Source of the DNA: Marmoricola sp. OAE513
GTDB lineage: Bacteria; Actinomycetota; Actinomycetes; Propionibacteriales; Nocardioidaceae
Reading direction: 5' to 3'
Length of the DNA stretch: 64,000 bases
NCBI RefSeq assembly: GCF_040546585.1
Contig: NZ_JBEPOC010000001.1
Span: 434,001-498,000, forward strand
Shown: piece by piece, positions 30,761-51,687 of the stretch
Position numbering within the stretch: the stretch's first letter is position 1
Layout: every line of letters starts with the position of its first letter
Notes under the pieces: generated by a model
Seen by the model: only the letters and a program-made list of their open reading frames with translations
Database searches by the model: none
Told to the model about the DNA's origin: nothing
Made by a program: the position numbers and the translations under genes

Positions 30761-32587
30761 TCAGCCGACCAGCTTGGCGCCGTTGCAGGTCGGACGGGAG
30801 ACGCTGTAGACGTCCGCTCCGCCGGCGTTCAGACCGATGAGGTCACCGAGGTTCTTGATGACCGGGTCCAGCAGCGGCGGGAGCGTCGTGTTGACAGCGG
30901 TCTTGAGGATGTTGCTGACGCCGTCGAGCACGGCCGCGATCGCCGTTCCTGCTCCGGCGTTCTTGTCCAGGTTGATCTCAGTGGTGACGGCGATCGCGAA
31001 CAGCACCTTCGTGGTCATGGTGATCTTGCCGCTCACCACCGTCAGCGGGTCGTTGGTCAGGCTGGGCAGCAGACCGAGCTTGTCGAACCGGGTTCCTGCC
31101 GACAGCGGCGAGCCCTTCGGGGTGGAGTTGTACGAGTTCTGCGGCACCCGGAGGTTCTTCGTCGAGGAGGTCGCCGACGGCGCGGTGATCGCGTTCACCC
31201 CGAGCTTCACGTGATCGAACTTCACCTCGATCAACGTGCCGAGGACACCCTGCAGCAGCGTGCCCAGCAGGCCCAGCTGGGCGGTTCCCATCGTGCCGTT
31301 GAGCTCGAGGTTGCTGGTCGCGCTGAGGCCGAGCAGGCCCGGCGTGACCGCGACCGAGTAGGAGTCCGGGGCAGCCGCCGTTCCTGCCTGGCAGACGATC
31401 GGGTTCGGGCTGACGAGCTTGCCGGTCGCGTTGCCGATTCCGCCGGTGATCTTGACGCCACCGGTGATGTCGACCCCGAGGATCTTCGTGTTGGCCGGGA
31501 CCGAGTAACCCAGGTCGACCTTCACCTGCGACGACTTCGCCACCGCAGTCGGGCTCGGGTCGTTCGGCACGCCGCACCAGGTCTGGATGCCCTGGGTCAC
31601 CTTGATGCTGCCGGTGATCCCGGCCGCGTTGAGGCTGCTGACGTCGACGCCGTGCTCCCCGTTGGCGACCTGGATCGCGCCCGAGATCAGATCGAGCACG
31701 TTCACGTCGGAGTTCAGCGCGGCGCTGTCGGTGCTCTGCAGGCTGATCATGTCGAGTACGTGGACCGGCTTGCTCAGGTTGATCCCGCTCGCTTGAATGG
31801 CCTGCAGCGCGGTGATCGCCGCGGCGTTACCGGGCTTGTCCTGCTTCTGCAGCACGGCGATCGTCGCCGCGGTGAAGTTGCCGAGGGTGACGTTGTTGTT
31901 GAGCAGACCGTCGACCGAACCGATGTGCGAGTCGGCCGCCAGCGAAGCCAGGTTCAGGCTCGCGGCTGCCAGCCCTTGGTAGCTGACCAGGCCGAGGTTG
32001 AGACCGAGGAGATCGTTGAGCGGTCCGAGCAGCGTCGACCCCTTGGTGTCGATCGCGGCGGCGTACGACCCCAGCTTGAAGCAGGCCGAGGACTGCCGGA
32101 CGCCGATCGCGTACCGGGTCGCCGAGCCGCTGCCGAACCCGTCGCCGGGCAGCGCGTTGGCCAGACCGAAGCCGACCGTCGCGGTCGCTTTGACCCGTAC
32201 TGCGGTGGGGATCACGTTGGAGGCGGTGGTCGGGGTGAAGTAGTTCGCCGTGCCGTACGCCGCGTTGTCCACGGTGCCCAGCTCGTAGGAGATGTCCGCG
32301 CTCTTGCCGCCGCTGCCGGAGCCGATGTTGGTGGCGTTGCGGTCGCGGCTCTCCTCGGCGATGGTCTGCAGCGCAGCCTTCTTCGACGCCGTGTAGGAGC
32401 CGTAGGTGCCCCCGGTGAGCTGGCGCGACAGGTCGAGCGCGACGACGTCGGCGACCGCCTGCATGTCGCGCCGGGCGACCCGCTGGACACCGATGTCGAC
32501 GGCCAGTGCGGCCATCGGGATCAGCACGAAGCAGGTCACCAGCGCCATCATGACGGCGACTGCGCCCTGCTGGTCGCGGCGCCGCAT
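30761..32587 (-). CDS. TadG-like secreted/membrane protein
   Basis: 608 residues. Starts with [19 protein letters not shown], the charged start plus hydrophobic pseudopilin-like helix of Tad/TadG proteins, then [26 protein letters not shown], the conserved putative Flp-like N-terminal region. The remaining 500 or so residues are rich in Gly, Ala, Leu, Asn and Thr, with a beta-type pattern and no von Willebrand A metal motif that I can see. Probably envelope-exposed. Its ATG overlaps the TadE-like stop by one base. No tadA, tadB, tadC or flp gene is in the window. Confidence 0.8.
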
Positions 32588-33057
32588 CAGCCGACCTGCG
32601 CGGTGGCGCTGTAGGCGAGCGTGTCGGGCAGCAGGAAGCCGAATCCCGGAACGGTCGGCATCAGCGAGTGGTCGCGGTACGGGTAGCTGACCTTGACCGA
32701 CAGGCACTTGAGCGCGTTGCCGTTCACGTCGTTGCCGCAGCCCGTGGTCTTCCAGGTGAAGGTGCAGGTCAGGTTCGACGTGCCGCAGGCCAGGTTGCCG
32801 GCAACACCTTCCAGGGCGTCGTCGACGGCCGACTTGGCGACGGCCTCAGCGGCCGCCTGCGAGGTGCCGGCGGGCGCCACGGCTGCGGCGCGAGCACCCT
32901 CGGCGGCGGCCTGGGACAGCGACTGCCGGAAGCTCAGCATGTAGGCGTACGAGATCGTCGCGAACACCAGCGGCAGAACCAAGAAGCAGATGCACAGCGC
33001 GGTCTCGACCGCGGCTGCTCCGCGTTCGGTGCGCTTCCCTGAACCCCACGTCGACAT
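32587..33057 (-). CDS. TadE-like pseudopilin
   Basis: 156 residues. N-terminal RGAAAVETALCICFLVLPLV is the TadE signature: short basic leader, conserved Glu at position 5 of the mature helix, then a single membrane helix. The extracytoplasmic domain has four cysteines (GNLACGTSNLTC, TTGCG, LKCLSV), likely two disulfides. Coupled to the TadG-like gene. A hairpin covers its ribosome site, suggesting translational control. Confidence 0.85.
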   Translation of the reverse strand: MSTWGSGKRTERGAAAVETALCICFLVLPLVFATISYAYMLSFRQSLSQAAAEGARAAAVAPAGTSQAAAEAVAKSAVDDALEGVAGNLACGTSNLTCTFTWKTTGCGNDVNGNALKCLSVKVSYPYRDHSLMPTVPGFGFLLPDTLAYSATAQVG

Positions 33058-35029: not shown

Positions 35030-35380
35030 TCAGAACTCGCGGCGCTCCTTGATCTTGGCAGCCTTGCCGCGCAGGTTGCGCAGGTAGTACAGCTTGGCGC
35101 GACGGACGTCACCGCGGGTGACGATCTCGATCTGCTCGAAGATCGGGGAGTTCAGCGGGAAGGTGCGCTCGACGCCGACACCGAAGGACACCTTGCGCAC
35201 CGTGAAGGTGCGGCCGATGCCGGAGCCCTGGACGCGGATCACGACGCCCTGGAACACCTGGACGCGGGAGCGGTTGCCCTCGACGACCTTCACGTGGACC
35301 TTGACGGTGTCGCCGGCGCGGAACTCGGGGACGTCGCTGCGCAGCGAGGCGGCAGCAAGGGTGTCGATGACGTTGGTCAT
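35030..35380 (-). CDS. rplS: Ribosomal protein bL19
   Basis: 116 residues, normal length. Contains [30 protein letters not shown] and [20 protein letters not shown]. Located at the 30S-50S interface. ATG preceded by AGGAGAT. In many actinobacteria it follows trmD directly; here a 3.6-kb envelope module separates the two, and rplS has its own promoter. Confidence 0.97.
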
Positions 35381-35545: not shown

Positions 35546-35578
35546 ATTCTGCCAGAGACGGCCTGCCCGAGGGAAATC
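35546..35578 (-). promoter_or_regulatory. rplS promoter, shared motif with rpsP
   Basis: On the minus strand GATTTCCC, 12 bases, then TCTCTGGCAGAAT. The same 13-mer and the GATTTCCC box occur before rpsP (41946-41977). A plausible -35/-10 pair is TTTCCC and CAGAAT. It overlaps the stop codon of the upstream lipoprotein gene. Confidence 0.5.
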
Positions 35579-36284
35579 AGCCGCGGTTCGCGGGCTCGAA
35601 GGTCCCCTCGAGGTGCCAGGCCCCCGCGAACTTGTCGAACGGTCCGCCGACGACCCCGCTGACCCAGGTGAGCACGAAGCGGCCGGTCGCGGCGTCGTAG
35701 GTGCCCGAGACGGGCACCGTCAGGCCGGGGGTGCCGCCTCCCGGCTTCGGGGAGCCCTGGTTGAAGTACAGGTTGTTCCACGACGCGGTCCAGGCGGTGA
35801 TCTGGCCGGTGAGCTTGCCGTCCTCGACGAAGATCGCCGGCTCCGGGTTGCGCTTCTTGGTGCCGGGGTCGACCTTCTCGGTGGAGATCCCGAACTTGAT
35901 GGCGGTGAAGCTGCCCGGCTGCGCGATCCGGCGGGCGACCGCGTTGCCGCCCTTGTCGAACGGGACCTTCGGGTTCGGCTGGTAGGACCCCGTCACCAGT
36001 CCCCCGTCGCTCCCGGGCACCTGGACGTTGAACGACTTGTCCTTGCACGGCGAGTCCGGGTTGCCGAAGAACGGACCGTCGGCAACCGTGCCGCCGCGGT
36101 TGATCATCCGGAAGTACGAGCCCGCGGCGCCCTTCGCCGTGCACCGTCCCGGCTCGAGCCGGAAGGTCCCGACGAGCTCGGTGCCCTTGCCTGCCCGGGC
36201 AGGCGCCCTGTCGCCGTCGCTGCCGCAGCCAGGCAGCACCGAGAGGGCCAGTACGGCGGCGAGCGCGATCACGGTGCGGTTCAT
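35577..36284 (-). CDS. Lipoprotein of unknown family, paralogue of the 37256 protein
   Basis: 235 residues. Signal peptide with lipobox LPGC (Cys20). The mature domain (about 35-232) aligns over its whole length with residues 57-252 of the surface protein at 37256. Shared features: GTYxRM-type start region, a cysteine pair (48 and 80 here), PGSDGGL, a WNNxxFNQGxPKPxGxTPG block, GTYDAATG and VVGGPFDKFxGxW. No catalytic motif known to me. Coupled by a four-base overlap to the duplicated membrane protein upstream. Predicted on the outer face of the membrane. Family not recognised. Confidence 0.85.
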   Translation of the reverse strand: MNRTVIALAAVLALSVLPGCGSDGDRAPARAGKGTELVGTFRLEPGRCTAKGAAGSYFRMINRGGTVADGPFFGNPDSPCKDKSFNVQVPGSDGGLVTGSYQPNPKVPFDKGGNAVARRIAQPGSFTAIKFGISTEKVDPGTKKRNPEPAIFVEDGKLTGQITAWTASWNNLYFNQGSPKPGGGTPGLTVPVSGTYDAATGRFVLTWVSGVVGGPFDKFAGAWHLEGTFEPANRG

Positions 36285-37237
36285 GCGGGTTCTCCTTGCG
36301 GATGGGTCAACCGGACCGGGCGGCCGGCGAGGAGGGCGAGGCCGACGACGATCAGCCCGGGGACCAGGAAGGCCCACGGGAAGATCGCGAACGGCGGCAG
36401 CGACTTGAGGGCGTCGTAGTTGTCCACGTTGTCGCTCATCGCGCCGATCATCGGCGTCATGTCGTTGAGGATGTGGACCCAGCCGTCGTTGAGCGCGGTG
36501 GTCGCGGGGAATTGCCGTGCCACCTCTGCGGCGCTCAGCCCGGTCTCCTGCAGAGCCGGTACCACCTCGAGCCGGATCGAGCCCTGACCGACCGCCATCT
36601 GGGAGAAGTAGCCCTGGATCCGGCCGACGTTCTCGCTGGTCTCGAGGTCGGCAAAGGCGGACATCATCTCGCCACCCTTCGGCGCGCGGGCGAACATGCC
36701 AAAGGCGAACGGCACCACGACCAGCGCGATGCCCACGGCGGCGACGGCGACCTGGCTCCCCCGGGTCCAGCGACGCCGCAGCGCCACCACGGCGAGGACC
36801 GCGAGGAGCACCAGCCCGGGCGCGAGGAAGAACCACGGAAACAGCCGGAAGCTGGGCAGGTCCGCCATCGCCTGGTAGTTGTCGAGGTTGTCGGTGACGT
36901 CGCCCATCAGCCCCGACATGTCGTCCTCGATCGGCGGCCACTGCTCGCTGAACTCCGCGTACGTCGGGTTGGTCGCCCTCGCGTCCGTCGCGTCCAGCTC
37001 GGAGACGGCGTCATCGATCAGGTCGAGGTCGGCAATGAACCCGGCCAGGCGTTCGGAGCTCATGAAGGGTGTGAAGTCCTCGAGCATCGAGGCGCCCTGC
37101 GGGGCCTTCGTGAGCATGCCCATCGCCAAGGGCCCAGCCACCAGACCGAGTGCGAGCAGGCCAAGGACGAGCACCGAGGTCCGGGTGCGTCGGGACGCTG
37201 TCCGCCACTCGGTCGCTTTGTCATCCAAGTCGACCAT
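36281..37237 (-). CDS. Internally duplicated four-helix membrane protein of unknown family
   Basis: 318 residues made of two tandem repeats. Each has a membrane helix, an external loop of roughly 100 residues, and a second helix: TM 21-42, loop to 132, TM 133-153, then TM 162-182, loop to 283, TM 284-305. Repeat landmarks match: KAPQGASML / RAPKGGEMM, DNLDNYQAMADLPSF / DNVDNYDALKSLPPF, and FPWFFLAPGL / FPWAFLVPGL. Both termini should be cytoplasmic. No transport or enzyme motif seen. Divergent, 18 bases from the surface-protein gene, and coupled to the lipoprotein gene downstream. Confidence 0.85.
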   Translation of the reverse strand: MVDLDDKATEWRTASRRTRTSVLVLGLLALGLVAGPLAMGMLTKAPQGASMLEDFTPFMSSERLAGFIADLDLIDDAVSELDATDARATNPTYAEFSEQWPPIEDDMSGLMGDVTDNLDNYQAMADLPSFRLFPWFFLAPGLVLLAVLAVVALRRRWTRGSQVAVAAVGIALVVVPFAFGMFARAPKGGEMMSAFADLETSENVGRIQGYFSQMAVGQGSIRLEVVPALQETGLSAAEVARQFPATTALNDGWVHILNDMTPMIGAMSDNVDNYDALKSLPPFAIFPWAFLVPGLIVVGLALLAGRPVRLTHPQGEPA

Positions 37238-37242
37238 GTTGC

Positions 37243-37251
37243 TAGACTTTA
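37243..37251. promoter_or_regulatory. Overlapping divergent -10 elements of the envelope module
   Basis: Plus strand TAGACT (37243-37248) is seven bases from the ATG at 37256. Minus strand TAAAGT (37246-37251) is eight bases from the ATG at 37237. The hexamers share three base pairs, so one short A/T-rich patch would serve both leaderless transcripts. Confidence 0.5.
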
Positions 37252-37255
37252 GACC

Positions 37256-38380
37256 ATGAACTCCGTTGGATCCCTCCCGATTCCCACCGGTCGTCGCGTG
37301 CACAGGAACCAGGGCCGACACCTGGGCCTGTACGCCGCGGCGCCGCTCGCGGCCCTGCTCGCACTGGCCGCGGTCGTCGTCCCGCAGCCCTCGCAGGCCG
37401 CCCCCGGCGTCCCCGCTGCCAAGGCGACCCGGCTCGTCGGCACGCTGCAGCTGACCGCCGGCAAGTGCGCGGGCGGGAAGGTCACCGGCACCTACCTGCG
37501 GATGATTCTGCCCAGCGGCGGTCCCAACGGGCCCTACATGGCGAACAACGACTCCTCGTGCTCCGACCAGAGCATCACTCCCCTGGCCCCGGGAACCGAC
37601 GGCGGCCTCAAGGTCGGCGGCGCGTACCAGCCGCCGCCGAGTCCGGTCTTCGACTCCTCGGGCAACGCGAGGGCCAACCGGCTGACCGCGCCCGCCCCGT
37701 TCTACGGCACCAGCTTCGCCACCGGCACCACCAAGGTCGACCGGCAGACCAAGAAGGCCGTCCCGGCGCCCAGCGCCACCGTCACCGGCAGCACCCTCAC
37801 CGCTGACCTGCGTGCGTTCGCCGTCACCTGGAACAACCAGGACTTCAACCAGGGGGCACCGAAGCCGGACGGTTCCACGCCCGGCAACACCCGCTCCGCG
37901 ACCGGCACGTACGACGCCGCCACGGGAGCCTTCACGTTGCACTGGACCAGCCAGGTCGTCGGCGGGCCCTTCGACAAGTTCACCGGCTCCTGGTACTTCG
38001 TCGGCAAGTTCGTCCCGGCCGCCGGGACGAAGCCGCCAGCCGCGAGCGGCAACGGCGGCAGCGCCGGCGGAACGGCGAACCCCGGAACCACCGCGAACGG
38101 CGCGGGCACCGGAACCGCCGTGCCGAACGCCCCGACCTCCCCCGGCGCGATCCCGACCGGCGCCAACCCGGGCGACGTCCCCGGCGCCGCGCCGGTCGTC
38201 GCCGGTCAGCAGCCGGCAGCGACCGGCCCGGTGACCACGAAGACCGTGACCCAGGAGAAGTGGCGGGTCTCCAAGCCGGTCATCGGTCTGGCCGTCGGCA
38301 TCGCCGTCCTGGGGTTCGCCGCCCTGCTCGCCCTGAGCGTCCTGCGCAGGCGGGCCGAGGCACCGGGCGAGGCGTCGTGA
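37256..38380 (+). CDS. C-terminally membrane-anchored surface protein, paralogue of the 35577 lipoprotein
   Basis: 374 residues. A long N-terminal signal (basic start, hydrophobic 24-42, cleavage plausible near SQA at 46-48). The folded domain, about 57-252, is homologous to the lipoprotein at 35577, with the matching cysteine pair at 71 and 102. Then comes an 80-residue Gly/Thr/Pro/Ala linker, and a C-terminal membrane helix (about 340-360) followed by LRRRAE, the stop-transfer layout of an anchored surface protein, without an LPxTG motif. Leaderless start. Overlaps the next gene by four bases. Family not recognised. Confidence 0.85.
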   Translation: MNSVGSLPIPTGRRVHRNQGRHLGLYAAAPLAALLALAAVVVPQPSQAAPGVPAAKATRLVGTLQLTAGKCAGGKVTGTYLRMILPSGGPNGPYMANNDSSCSDQSITPLAPGTDGGLKVGGAYQPPPSPVFDSSGNARANRLTAPAPFYGTSFATGTTKVDRQTKKAVPAPSATVTGSTLTADLRAFAVTWNNQDFNQGAPKPDGSTPGNTRSATGTYDAATGAFTLHWTSQVVGGPFDKFTGSWYFVGKFVPAAGTKPPAASGNGGSAGGTANPGTTANGAGTGTAVPNAPTSPGAIPTGANPGDVPGAAPVVAGQQPAATGPVTTKTVTQEKWRVSKPVIGLAVGIAVLGFAALLALSVLRRRAEAPGEAS

Positions 38381-39168
38381 AGGTCCCCCACGTCCTCTCG
38401 GCCGCCGCGCTGAACCGCAACGCGCGGTTCATCAAGCCCGCGCTGATCGTCCTGATCGCGGTCGACCTGCTCGCCCTGGCTGCCTTCTCGGTGCGGCTGG
38501 ACTCGGTCACCACCACGACCAGCGTCCCCGGCCCGCCACCGGCAGCCGTGCTCGCGCCGGTCACCGCACCTCCCGCCGCGCCCGTTCCGCCGGCACTCCC
38601 GGCCGTCTCGGTCGGGGTCGGGGGCACGCCGATCAGCACTCCGGCCAAGCCGTCCCCGACGCCGAGCAAGCCTGCTGCGCCGGTCACCCCGGAGCCGACG
38701 GACCCGGCGGAGCCGACCGAACCCGGCTCGGTGAAGATCGCTCGCTGCGTCATCCCGATCAAGGAGCCGACCACCAGCGGTGGACTGCAGACCCTGATCG
38801 GGTTCGCCCCCGCGTTCGGTCCGTTCAAGGCCGAGGCGTTCGCCCCGGCGGCCGCCTACCAGCCGCTGCTCCAGCTGCTCGGCCCGATCCTGGCCAAGTA
38901 CCCCGAGATCGCCCCGAAGATCGAGCCGGCGCTGACGCCGCTGCTGGACACCTTCGCCGCGCTGCTCGACCAGGGCTTCAACCTGATCGCGCCGCTCTAC
39001 AGCCCCTACCGGCAGTCGTTCCTGGAGGCGGAGGGCAAGCTCGCCGCCGCCCTGGCGCCGTACTCGCAGAAGCTGGCGGCCTCGCCGCTGGGTGGCTGCA
39101 TCGTGGAGCTGCAGGCAGCGCTGCTCGAGGACAGCACCCCGACGGCCAGGACGGTGGCAGCGAAGTAG
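38377..39168 (+). CDS. Membrane-anchored extracytoplasmic helical protein of unknown family
   Basis: 263 residues. One membrane helix (20-38) near the N-terminus, a 75-residue Pro/Ala/Thr/Val-rich linker, then an alpha-helical domain (about 119-250) bounded by two cysteines, Cys124 and Cys241, which could close it with a disulfide. GTG start overlaps the upstream stop by four bases (GTGA), so it is translated with the anchored surface protein. Ends three bases before the convergent trmD. No recognised family. Confidence 0.82.
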   Translation: MKVPHVLSAAALNRNARFIKPALIVLIAVDLLALAAFSVRLDSVTTTTSVPGPPPAAVLAPVTAPPAAPVPPALPAVSVGVGGTPISTPAKPSPTPSKPAAPVTPEPTDPAEPTEPGSVKIARCVIPIKEPTTSGGLQTLIGFAPAFGPFKAEAFAPAAAYQPLLQLLGPILAKYPEIAPKIEPALTPLLDTFAALLDQGFNLIAPLYSPYRQSFLEAEGKLAAALAPYSQKLAASPLGGCIVELQAALLEDSTPTARTVAAK

Positions 39169-39171
39169 GGG

Positions 39172-40323
39172 TCAGGCCTTCTTCGTCAGACGGACGACAC
39201 CCGGCTCGATCTCGCCGCGGAGCCGGTAGCCGGCCTTGCGGTACATCCGCTGGTTGCGCACGCTGCCGGCCCCGGTGAAGAGCTCGTAGCCCTGCACGCC
39301 CTCGGGGGCGAGGGCCTCGATCTGCTCCAGCAGGGTGCGGCCCAGGCCGGTGCCCTGCACGTCGGGCGCGACCATCAACCGCCCGATGTCCCAGGTCGCC
39401 GCGCCGTCCTCGGCGTGCAGCCTGGCCCGGACCGCGCCCACCAGGCGACCACCGGAACGGGCGACGAGCACGGTGTCGGTGGCGATCCAGGAGACGACGT
39501 CGGCCAGCGACTCCTGCAGCGCCGGGATCTCGACCCCGGGGTTGGCCTGCTGCTCCTGGACCCAGCACGCGCGCTGCAGGGTGAACAGCTCGCCGGCATC
39601 GGCAGGCGCGACCAGGCGGATCTCCCCGTCGGCGAACCCGGCCGAGAGGTGGCGCAGGTCCGGTCGTCGCTCCGCCGTACGCCGCTCGGACTGCTCGCGC
39701 CGCCAGGCGGCGATCCGCCCGTGGTCCCCCGAGAGCAGGACCTCGGGGACAGCCAGCCCGCGCCAGACCGCAGGCTTCGTGTAGACGGGGTACTCCAGCA
39801 GGCCGTTCGCGTGCGACTCCTCGGCGAGCGACTCCGCGTTGCCCATGAAACCGGGGATCAGCCGCACCACCGCCTCGATGACGGCCAGGGCCGCCACCTC
39901 CCCGCCGTTGAGCACGTAGTCGCCCAGCGAGACCTCGCGGACCTCCATCCGGGTGGCGGCGTGGTCGAGCACGCGCTGGTCGATGCCCTCGTACCGCCCG
40001 CACGCGAAGACCAGGTGCTCGCGCTCGGAGAGCTCGGCCGCCAAGACCTGGGTGAACGGGCTCCCGGCCGGGGTCGGCACGACCAGGACGGCACCCTCCG
40101 CGCCGAGCGCGTCCAGGGCCTCACCCCACGGCTCGGGCTTCAGCACCATGCCGGCCCCGCCGCCGTACGGCGTGTCGTCGACGGTGCGGTGCTTGTCGGT
40201 CGTCCAGTCGCGCAGGTCGTGCACGACGATGTCGAGCAGACCCTTCTCGCGTGCCTTGCCGGGCAGCGAGAGCTCCAGCGGCGCGAGGTAGTCGGGGAAG
40301 ATCGAGACCACGTCGATGCGCAC
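39172..40323 (-). CDS. trmD: tRNA (guanine37-N1)-methyltransferase fused to a GNAT domain
   Basis: 383 residues, whereas TrmD alone is about 230-250. Residues 1-230 are Trm[23 protein letters not shown], and the knot GDYVLNGGE (134-142). The residue matching catalytic Asp169 of E. coli is Glu169 (AEESH). Residues 235-383 are a GNAT acetyltransferase domain with motif [17 protein letters not shown] (315-330) and [10 protein letters not shown]. The fusion is in frame with no stop between. Leaderless promoter TAGGCT-N6-GTG lies inside a 78-bp tandem repeat. Last gene of the rpsP operon direction. Confidence 0.95.
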
Positions 40324-40480
40324 GTGCGGAGCCTATCGAGCGTCCGAGCTTGCTCGTGACCGAGTGGGCGAACGCACGGTGCCGAGCGGAGCGAGAATCA
40401 CGTGCGGAGCCTATCGAGCGTCCGAGCTTGCTCGTGACCGAGTGGGCGAACGCACGGTGCCGAGCGGAGCGAGGATCACG
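40321..40480. repeat. 78-bp tandem direct repeat, two copies, between rimM and trmD
   Basis: Copy 1 is 40321-40398 and copy 2 40399-40476; they differ at one base. A further four bases of a third unit follow. Each unit holds a TAGGCT-N6-GTG promoter/start and small palindromes such as CGAGCTTGCTCG. Confidence 0.93.
40330..40335 (-). promoter_or_regulatory. -10 element of leaderless trmD
   Basis: TAGGCT on the minus strand, six bases before the trmD GTG. A copy of the same element with a GTG sits 78 bases upstream (40408-40413). Confidence 0.5.
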
Positions 40481-48052: not shown

Positions 48053-49734
<1,682 letters not shown>

Positions 49735-49759
49735 GGATCCACACCCTCACGCGCACAGG

Positions 49760-49810
49760 TTTCCGGCAGGCGCGCCCCGTGTTTCCACGAAGTTGCACGC
49801 CTGCCGGAAA
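49760..49810. repeat. 13-bp inverted repeat upstream of amt
   Basis: TTTCCGGCAGGCG (49760-49772) and CGCCTGCCGGAAA (49798-49810), perfect, 25-base loop containing one GlnR-like box. May end the upstream amt-glnB transcript or form an operator loop. Confidence 0.6.
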
Positions 49811-49827
49811 TGTTACGGCCGTGTTAA
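49781..49827 (-). promoter_or_regulatory. GlnR-like double operator of amt-glnB-glnD
   Basis: Minus strand: TTAAC-N6-GTAAC (49812-49827), 15 bases, GCAAC-N6-GAAAC (49781-49796). Matches the GlnR pattern gTnAC-N6-GaAAC with one or two mismatches per box. Same geometry as at 51604-51650. Confidence 0.55.
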
Positions 49828-49860
49828 CGGACGCTCACTGCTGTGCGGTTCTCGGACCGG

Positions 49861-51687
<1,827 letters not shown>

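Follow-up and report, generated by a model that had tools for sequence, protein, structure and literature searches.

A conserved four-gene envelope module of actinobacteria, located between rplS and trmD in Marmoricola sp. OAE513, with a recurrent ABC-2-like partner

Genes of the module and their relatives

We analyzed a 64,000-nucleotide stretch of DNA (the window), which spans positions 434001-498000 of the single-contig 3.89-Mb genome of Marmoricola sp. OAE513, for a module of four genes, A, B, C and D, that lies between rplS and trmD. The module is real and its conservation goes far beyond chance; a function is proposed for it tentatively below. Open reading frames (ORFs) were confirmed for A (35577..36284) and B (36281..37237) on the minus strand and for C (37256..38380) and D (38377..39168) on the plus strand. 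As claimed in an original prediction made from the letters of the window, the genes thus form two divergent coupled pairs, A with B and C with D, with an overlap of 4 nucleotides (nt) within each pair.

The four products bear signal, lipid or membrane anchors. A is a lipoprotein of 235 amino acids (aa) with Cys20 in an LPGC motif, which we take to be lipobox-like, followed by an all-beta domain and the further cysteines Cys48 and Cys80. C (374 aa) begins with a hydrophobic segment (signal peptide or anchor) and carries the same domain, found to be 50% identical to that of A over 203 columns (E 2e-61), followed by a Pro/Gly/Ala-rich linker, a C-terminal transmembrane segment and a basic tail. 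In an alignment of 73 rows of this A/C domain Met60 was invariant, His224 was kept in 95% and a cysteine pair was present in 60%. B (318 aa) was confirmed as a duplicated membrane protein, with halves 31% identical (E 4e-25) and four hydrophobic segments, two per half. Each half thus comprises two transmembrane segments separated by a helical part of about 95-105 residues, which would lie outside the cell. D (263 aa) consists of an N-terminal transmembrane segment, a Pro-rich linker and a conserved domain in which Cys124 and Cys241 were invariant among 52 homologues.

None of the four window proteins matched a Pfam or NCBIfam model above its curated cut-off, in agreement with the earlier claim that they hold no recognised domain. 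Homologue sets were scanned as well (73 A/C proteins against Pfam and NCBIfam, 52 D and 58 B proteins against Pfam, with E-values only for set members other than the first), and NCBIfam was searched with the window proteins plus one Nocardia D for B and D. By this approach only weak matches were detected, the strongest being to SPW in 16 of the 58 B proteins (best E 4.3e-6), where SPW-type matches cover membrane segments; 20 of the 58 B proteins scanned singly were below every cut-off. Sequence searches of the PDB with the module proteins gave a best match of E 0.049. A known family for A, B, C or D was thus rejected at the level of Pfam and NCBIfam cut-offs, and the protein families A/C, B and D are without a curated name in the libraries used. 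A literature search limited to a few terms and their best-ranked results found no paper on the cassette, which is no proof of its absence from print. The homologues of C, B, A and D in a Tsukamurella tyrosinosolvens record are annotated as hypothetical.

The placement of the module was compared to that in related genomes. Twelve genomes of the same genus were searched for rplS, of which 11 gave a match. Here trmD was found 189-335 nt from rplS in eight, trmD ended about 1.3 kb from rplS in two, and in one no trmD appeared in the 1.5 kb retrieved. Since rplS stands directly beside trmD in eight of these 11 genomes, the module is an insertion, as had been predicted. Two other genomes (L029 and L031) carry C-D alone at this place, and in other genomes the cassette adjoins other genes; the rplS-trmD place is thus one of several cassette sites. 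A mobile element was considered and rejected, as no phage match and one plasmid record were found and the GC content of the module (71.3%) compares to 70.4% for the window.

Distribution, gene order and a recurrent ABC pair

Profiles of A, B and D were searched against 197 genomes of the family to which this bacterium belongs. A was detected in ten genomes (six strong matches at E <=6.1e-33 and four weak), B in ten (six strong at E <=3.1e-98 and four weak) and D in five, all strong. The six strong-A genomes are the six strong-B genomes, and the five with D, each of which has at least one B-A pair, are among them; the sixth (G110), without D, has a completeness of 90%. No genome had both a weak A and a weak B hit. 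The weak hits of A (G087, G111, G114 and G134) were left out of the strong count, and in their neighbourhoods (L033-L036) no ORF matched the profile of A, B or D at E 1; those of B (G047, G102, G158 and G180) were left out by E-value alone. The B and D profiles include sequences of some of the surveyed genomes, so hits there are strong by construction, and it is the absence from the remaining 191 genomes that is informative.

An A/C alignment scan of genome contigs extended the comparison to 86 relatives, of which 80 were kept, at 73 loci in about 65 assemblies by our reading of the titles, some assemblies having two or three loci. By title all 73 are actinobacterial, with hosts that include Nocardioides, Aeromicrobium, Nocardia, Gordonia, Williamsia, Mycobacteroides, Segniliparus and Antrihabitans as well as Acidimicrobiia, Thermoleophilaceae, Frankiaceae and others. 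A, B and D were found together at 49 loci, A and B at nine, A and D at two and A only at 13. The claim that the four genes belong together is borne out by this co-occurrence and by a fixed order: A follows B in the same direction for all 58 B genes, and the order C-B-A-D was observed at 36 loci and at two more in which B or C is split in two frames (38 in all). Four loci run B-A-D and are cut off before C, and four are divergent like the window. Homologues scattered singly, which the original prediction had named as evidence against a module, were thus mostly not found, the 13 A-only loci being the part that departs from this pattern, nine of them at a contig end.

A was rare across the phylum, with matches in 3 of 396 genomes, and was found in 5 of 394 genomes of the class, in searches that scored 5-7 candidates per genome and may have missed some. 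In the family of another class member (G484) A was matched in 30 of 251 genomes. Two matches were present in 28 of these, separated by about 1.6-2.3 kb in the cases where both were listed.

A recurrent partner of the module, which the original prediction missed, is an ATP-binding cassette (ABC) ATPase encoded with an ABC-2-like permease. In the Marmoricola genome itself a second locus (L005, at about 1.437 Mb) holds B', A', the ABC ATPase, the permease and a TetR-type regulator in a row. The pair therefore adjoins A', and it does not adjoin the window's own A. Across the 73 loci the permease model matched ten and the ATPase query nine, those nine being shared. The pair follows B-A in Nocardioides, Marmoricola, Aeromicrobium and in metagenome-assembled genomes (MAGs) of Acidimicrobiia, Frankiaceae and Nocardioidaceae, follows C-B-A-D in one Gordonia and in Jongsikchunia, and lies opposite C-D in one actinobacterial MAG, where the contig then ends. 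Among the nine, the contig of L108 stops before any B-A, and in Gordonia araii (L109) there is a match to the permease model only, after a C-like gene. The permease scored 23.1 against Pfam ABC2_membrane_4, below the cut-off of 27. In Tsukamurella tyrosinosolvens C (here without a transmembrane tail), B, A and D form one run of overlapping genes with that for a 491-aa ABC protein; the C-terminal half of this protein looks hydrophobic and gave no match to the permease model or to a Pfam membrane family. The recurrence of the ABC pair beside the module points to transport rather than to adhesion or sensing.

A tree of 122 A/C domains, for which the program warned of long branches, window A among them, resolved three groups: 54 C rows (100/98); 49 A rows (100/99), in which A of Mycobacteriales is joined with the ABC-linked A'; and eight rows that unite window A with Nocardioides, Acidimicrobiia and Thermoleophilaceae kin, one of them labelled C. 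Eleven rows fell outside these groups, the labels A and C need five changes each, and the deep forks are weak. In this tree window A is a separate lineage, and the orthologue of the usual cassette A is the copy encoded next to the ABC genes, at a distance of about 1 Mb in the Marmoricola genome. The usual cassette is therefore matched in this genome by C-D of the window together with B'-A'-ABC at 1.437 Mb, and the A and B genes next to C-D make up a second pair in parallel.

Predicted structures, proposed working and alternatives

The predicted structure of A (mean predicted local distance difference test, pLDDT, 91.3, and about 96-98 over most of the domain) consists of strands only. Lipocalins, LbpB/TbpB, BcnA and LolA were among its top matches, at E >=0.3 and template-modelling (TM) scores <=0.34, and an assignment of A as a lipocalin was rejected. 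The model of B (pLDDT 94.9) is all helical, and a Foldseek search of the PDB returned 759 matches. Among the best 50 of these, which were listed, the first nine are entries of TTYH1-3 (human where the species is titled), at E 7.6e-4 to 0.065 and probabilities of 1.00-0.82; those that follow are mixed, at E of about 0.1. TTYH, too, is a membrane protein built of helices throughout, in which two helical parts are each framed by a pair of transmembrane segments. These parts stand at segments 2-3 and 4-5 in TTYH and, in the B model, at segments 1-2 and 3-4, on a side that would correspond to the outside. Passages of PMC8361169 describe this topology and a hydrophobic extracellular pocket of TTYH proteins, and passages of PMC12328215 report that lipid transfer from APOE particles is faster with TTYH2.

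Four features, namely the linkage to ABC-2 genes, the presence of a lipoprotein, a long-armed second copy of its domain and the TTYH-like helix order of B, led us to propose that this conserved system of the actinobacterial envelope is an ABC-linked relay, by which a hydrophobic, lipid-like compound is moved or handed over on the outside of the cytoplasmic membrane, a reading we hold as plausible with somewhat less than even confidence. Delivery of the compound to the outer leaflet would fall to an ABC-2-type exporter, whose genes adjoin B-A in some genomes and lie at about 1.437 Mb here. B, with its two transmembrane-helical part-transmembrane repeats, would provide a route by which the compound leaves the leaflet for the extramembrane part of B; the beta domain shared by lipoprotein A and long-armed C would take the compound up, and D, tethered by its own transmembrane segment and Pro-rich arm, would assist C. 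The proposal builds on the observed gene content, overlaps, co-occurrence, hydropathy, duplication and ABC linkage, and to it belong a presumed cargo of presumably hydrophobic nature, the direction of its movement, the sidedness of B and any physical contact among the proteins.

Several results weigh against a relay of this kind. Loci with the order C-B-A-D or a truncated B-A-D number 42, and only 2 of them have the ABC pair. When the permease profile was searched against 23 cassette genomes (E 1e-5), matches were detected in 18, of which three were strong, two moderate (E of about 1e-30) and 13 weak, and five genomes gave none; the three strong matches are all beside the cassette. An obligate ABC partner was thus rejected, as most C-B-A-D loci are without the pair and many cassette genomes without a strong permease match, and the pump is a recurrent partner of the module. 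The permease of the Marmoricola genome (L005:3905-4643, about 1.436 Mb) shows its family match as two overlapping segments that lie in different frames, so the gene is frameshifted or carries a sequencing error. With regard to structure, the A model had no significant match in the PDB (best E 0.3) or BFVD. The TM-scores of B with TTYH are 0.19-0.32 at a root-mean-square deviation (rmsd) of 11-16 Å, with two matches at E <=0.001; the top match (E 7.6e-4, probability 1.00) has a TMq of 0.30 and an rmsd of 14.7. The likeness may therefore be one of helix order only, and is not a proven common fold. TTYH has five transmembrane segments and B has four, B is internally duplicated, and no sequence kinship was detectable: Pfam Tweety (PF04906) was above cut-off in none of ten cassette genomes, with its weak hits not on the cassette, it was absent among the families listed for window B and 20 further B proteins, and a search of PDB sequences with one profile (A5) found no TTYH.

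The plan of an ABC-2-type exporter with a lipoprotein is of a known kind, and some parts of the module are, to our knowledge, without counterpart. DrrABC-LppX(-MmpL7) is alike in combining an ABC exporter with a lipoprotein outside the membrane, and the module-linked ATPase scores 131 bits with the drrA model (E 5.5e-38; cut-off 312). It differs in that no MmpL gene was noticed by eye in the printed neighbourhoods, and searches of A against Pfam, NCBIfam and PDB sequences gave neither LppX/LprG nor any other named lipoprotein family; we know of no counterparts of B, C and D in that system. In the heme uptake system HtaA/HmuTUV secreted and transmembrane-tailed copies of one domain, much like A and C, stand beside an ABC system. 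The ABC pair here differs in being ABC-2-like and not an importer, and Pfam scans of the module proteins, which were not a search aimed at HtaA, gave no HtaA domain. DrrABC and LppX(-MmpL7) take part in mycobacterial export of phthiocerol dimycocerosate (PDIM) according to PMC11539658.

The LanFEG-LanI system, which likewise pairs an ABC transporter with a surface lipoprotein, leads to a different reading. Here A would catch an amphiphilic antimicrobial at the cell surface and the ABC-2 pump would remove it, while B, C and D would serve as surface accessories. When the ATPase is compared with NCBIfam, it is best matched by the lantibiotic protection ABC ATP-binding subunit TIGR03740 (E 3.9e-44), the second locus has a gene of TetR type after its ABC genes, and the patchy spread in the phylum and in the G484 family agrees with immunity. 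The score is, however, 151 bits against a cut-off of 309.75, about half, with the GldA and DrrA models close behind, and the module differs from LanFEG-LanI in its extra B, C and D. No lantibiotic-type biosynthetic genes were recognised by eye, without a library scan, in 17 neighbourhoods, an AMP-binding protein and a monooxygenase are encoded close to the cassette in the Tsukamurella record, and most C-B-A-D loci are without the ABC pair, so that we regard immunity or detoxification as unlikely. Surface adhesion, envelope sensing or substrate binding, the roles offered in the original prediction, would suit anchored proteins with long Pro-rich arms. Yet no adhesin or sensor domain exceeded a Pfam or NCBIfam cut-off in the window proteins, no recurring signalling gene was recognised in the 17 neighbourhoods (by eye only), and the link to the ABC pair speaks for transport; such roles are quite unlikely, adhesion and sensing found no support, and the earlier interpretation is only partly supported as a whole.

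A metabolic role, with A/C as metal binders or as helpers of an extracellular copper enzyme in copper or sulfur-compound (methanethiol-type) metabolism outside the membrane, is suggested by genes for a methanethiol oxidase-like protein and a CopC-CopD fusion that follow A in Nocardioides (L039 and L040) and stand near A in an Acidimicrobiaceae MAG (L043). A DUF4395 gene follows in both Nocardioides and lies between C and D in L044 and L108, and the conserved Met60 and His224 would fit a metal site. The likeness to the oxidase is distant: P0011 matches NCBIfam MtoX at E 3e-8 and 32.5 bits against a cut-off of 650, and its homologue P0010 (E 1e-96) has no NCBIfam match itself. Such genes were, moreover, found at only 5 of the 73 loci, within the fetched flanks of no Mycobacteriales cassette, and not in the window, the Marmoricola genome giving a CopCD-like match elsewhere only, in a search that did not cover the oxidase-like gene; with the cysteine pair limited to 60% of rows, we consider this role improbable. 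B could also be a membrane-shaping protein in a module that makes or loads extracellular vesicles, as passages of PMC11405016 report that TTYH1 and Prominin 1 both induce vesicle formation and TTYH entries head the fold matches of B. The structural similarity is equally weak for this purpose, and A, C and the ABC pair would be left unexplained, which makes the idea highly improbable.

Returning to the lipid relay, a more specific form of it would be a bacterial counterpart of the TTYH-apolipoprotein system, with a TTYH-like B as the portal for lipids and with A, C and D as its dedicated lipid carriers in the envelope, loaded by the ABC-2 pump where it is present, in a module common to Nocardioides, Acidimicrobiia and mycolic-acid actinobacteria. 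In this full form we think the idea rather unlikely. A/C, B and D in any case make up a tightly linked system of environmental and some patient-derived actinobacteria, and a relay of lipids or lipophiles would be a new envelope trafficking route beside the known mycobacterial ones. Two TTYH papers call the family eukaryotic, and a bacterial TTYH-like protein, if confirmed, would be a simple model for a eukaryotic class whose lipid-transfer function was reported in 2025 (PMC12328215).

Intergenic spacer, flanking genes and minor observations

The ATG codons of B and C are separated by 18 nt (37238..37255). A home-made codon-usage gene caller, which also calls A, B, C and D, prefers a start of C at 37298, so this spacing is not certain. 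The spacer holds TAGACT towards C and TAAAGT towards B, which are possibly overlapping -10 elements of leaderless promoters, a reading that is void if C starts at 37298. TAAAGT-TAG elements also stand upstream of B in L025 and L039. One shared operator was rejected, as TAAAGT-type elements were found before B in L025, L030 (by eye), L032 and L039 and not generally. A consensus promoter scan found none at the spacer, and a scan for promoters and terminators gave nothing above chance. Operator-like AT-rich palindromes were seen upstream of B genes at L032:642-663 and L041:639-663.

Downstream of A in Nocardioides and an Acidimicrobiaceae MAG, a protein distantly related in sequence to methanethiol oxidase and a CopC-CopD fusion are encoded at L025:9069-14750, L039:8967-14550 and L043:12421-16631, the fusion of L025 bearing a periplasmic-binding-protein-like tail.

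The module is flanked on its left by rplS (35030..35380, minus strand) and on its right by trmD (39172..40323, minus strand), both outside it. The latter is fused to a C-terminal GNAT acetyltransferase domain, and genes of similar length and similar start occupy the same place in L029 and L031. Just upstream of trmD (40338-40473) a 58-bp stretch occurs twice, exactly, with starts 78 nt apart and no other copy in the window. Among housekeeping genes, the stretch 30761-33057 holds one TadE-like gene and a large gene whose product bears a Tad (TadE/G-like) domain, and similar-looking genes lie nearby in L029 and L031. At 48053-50199, two P-II genes flank a gene that, from its sequence, we take to be ammonium transporter-like.

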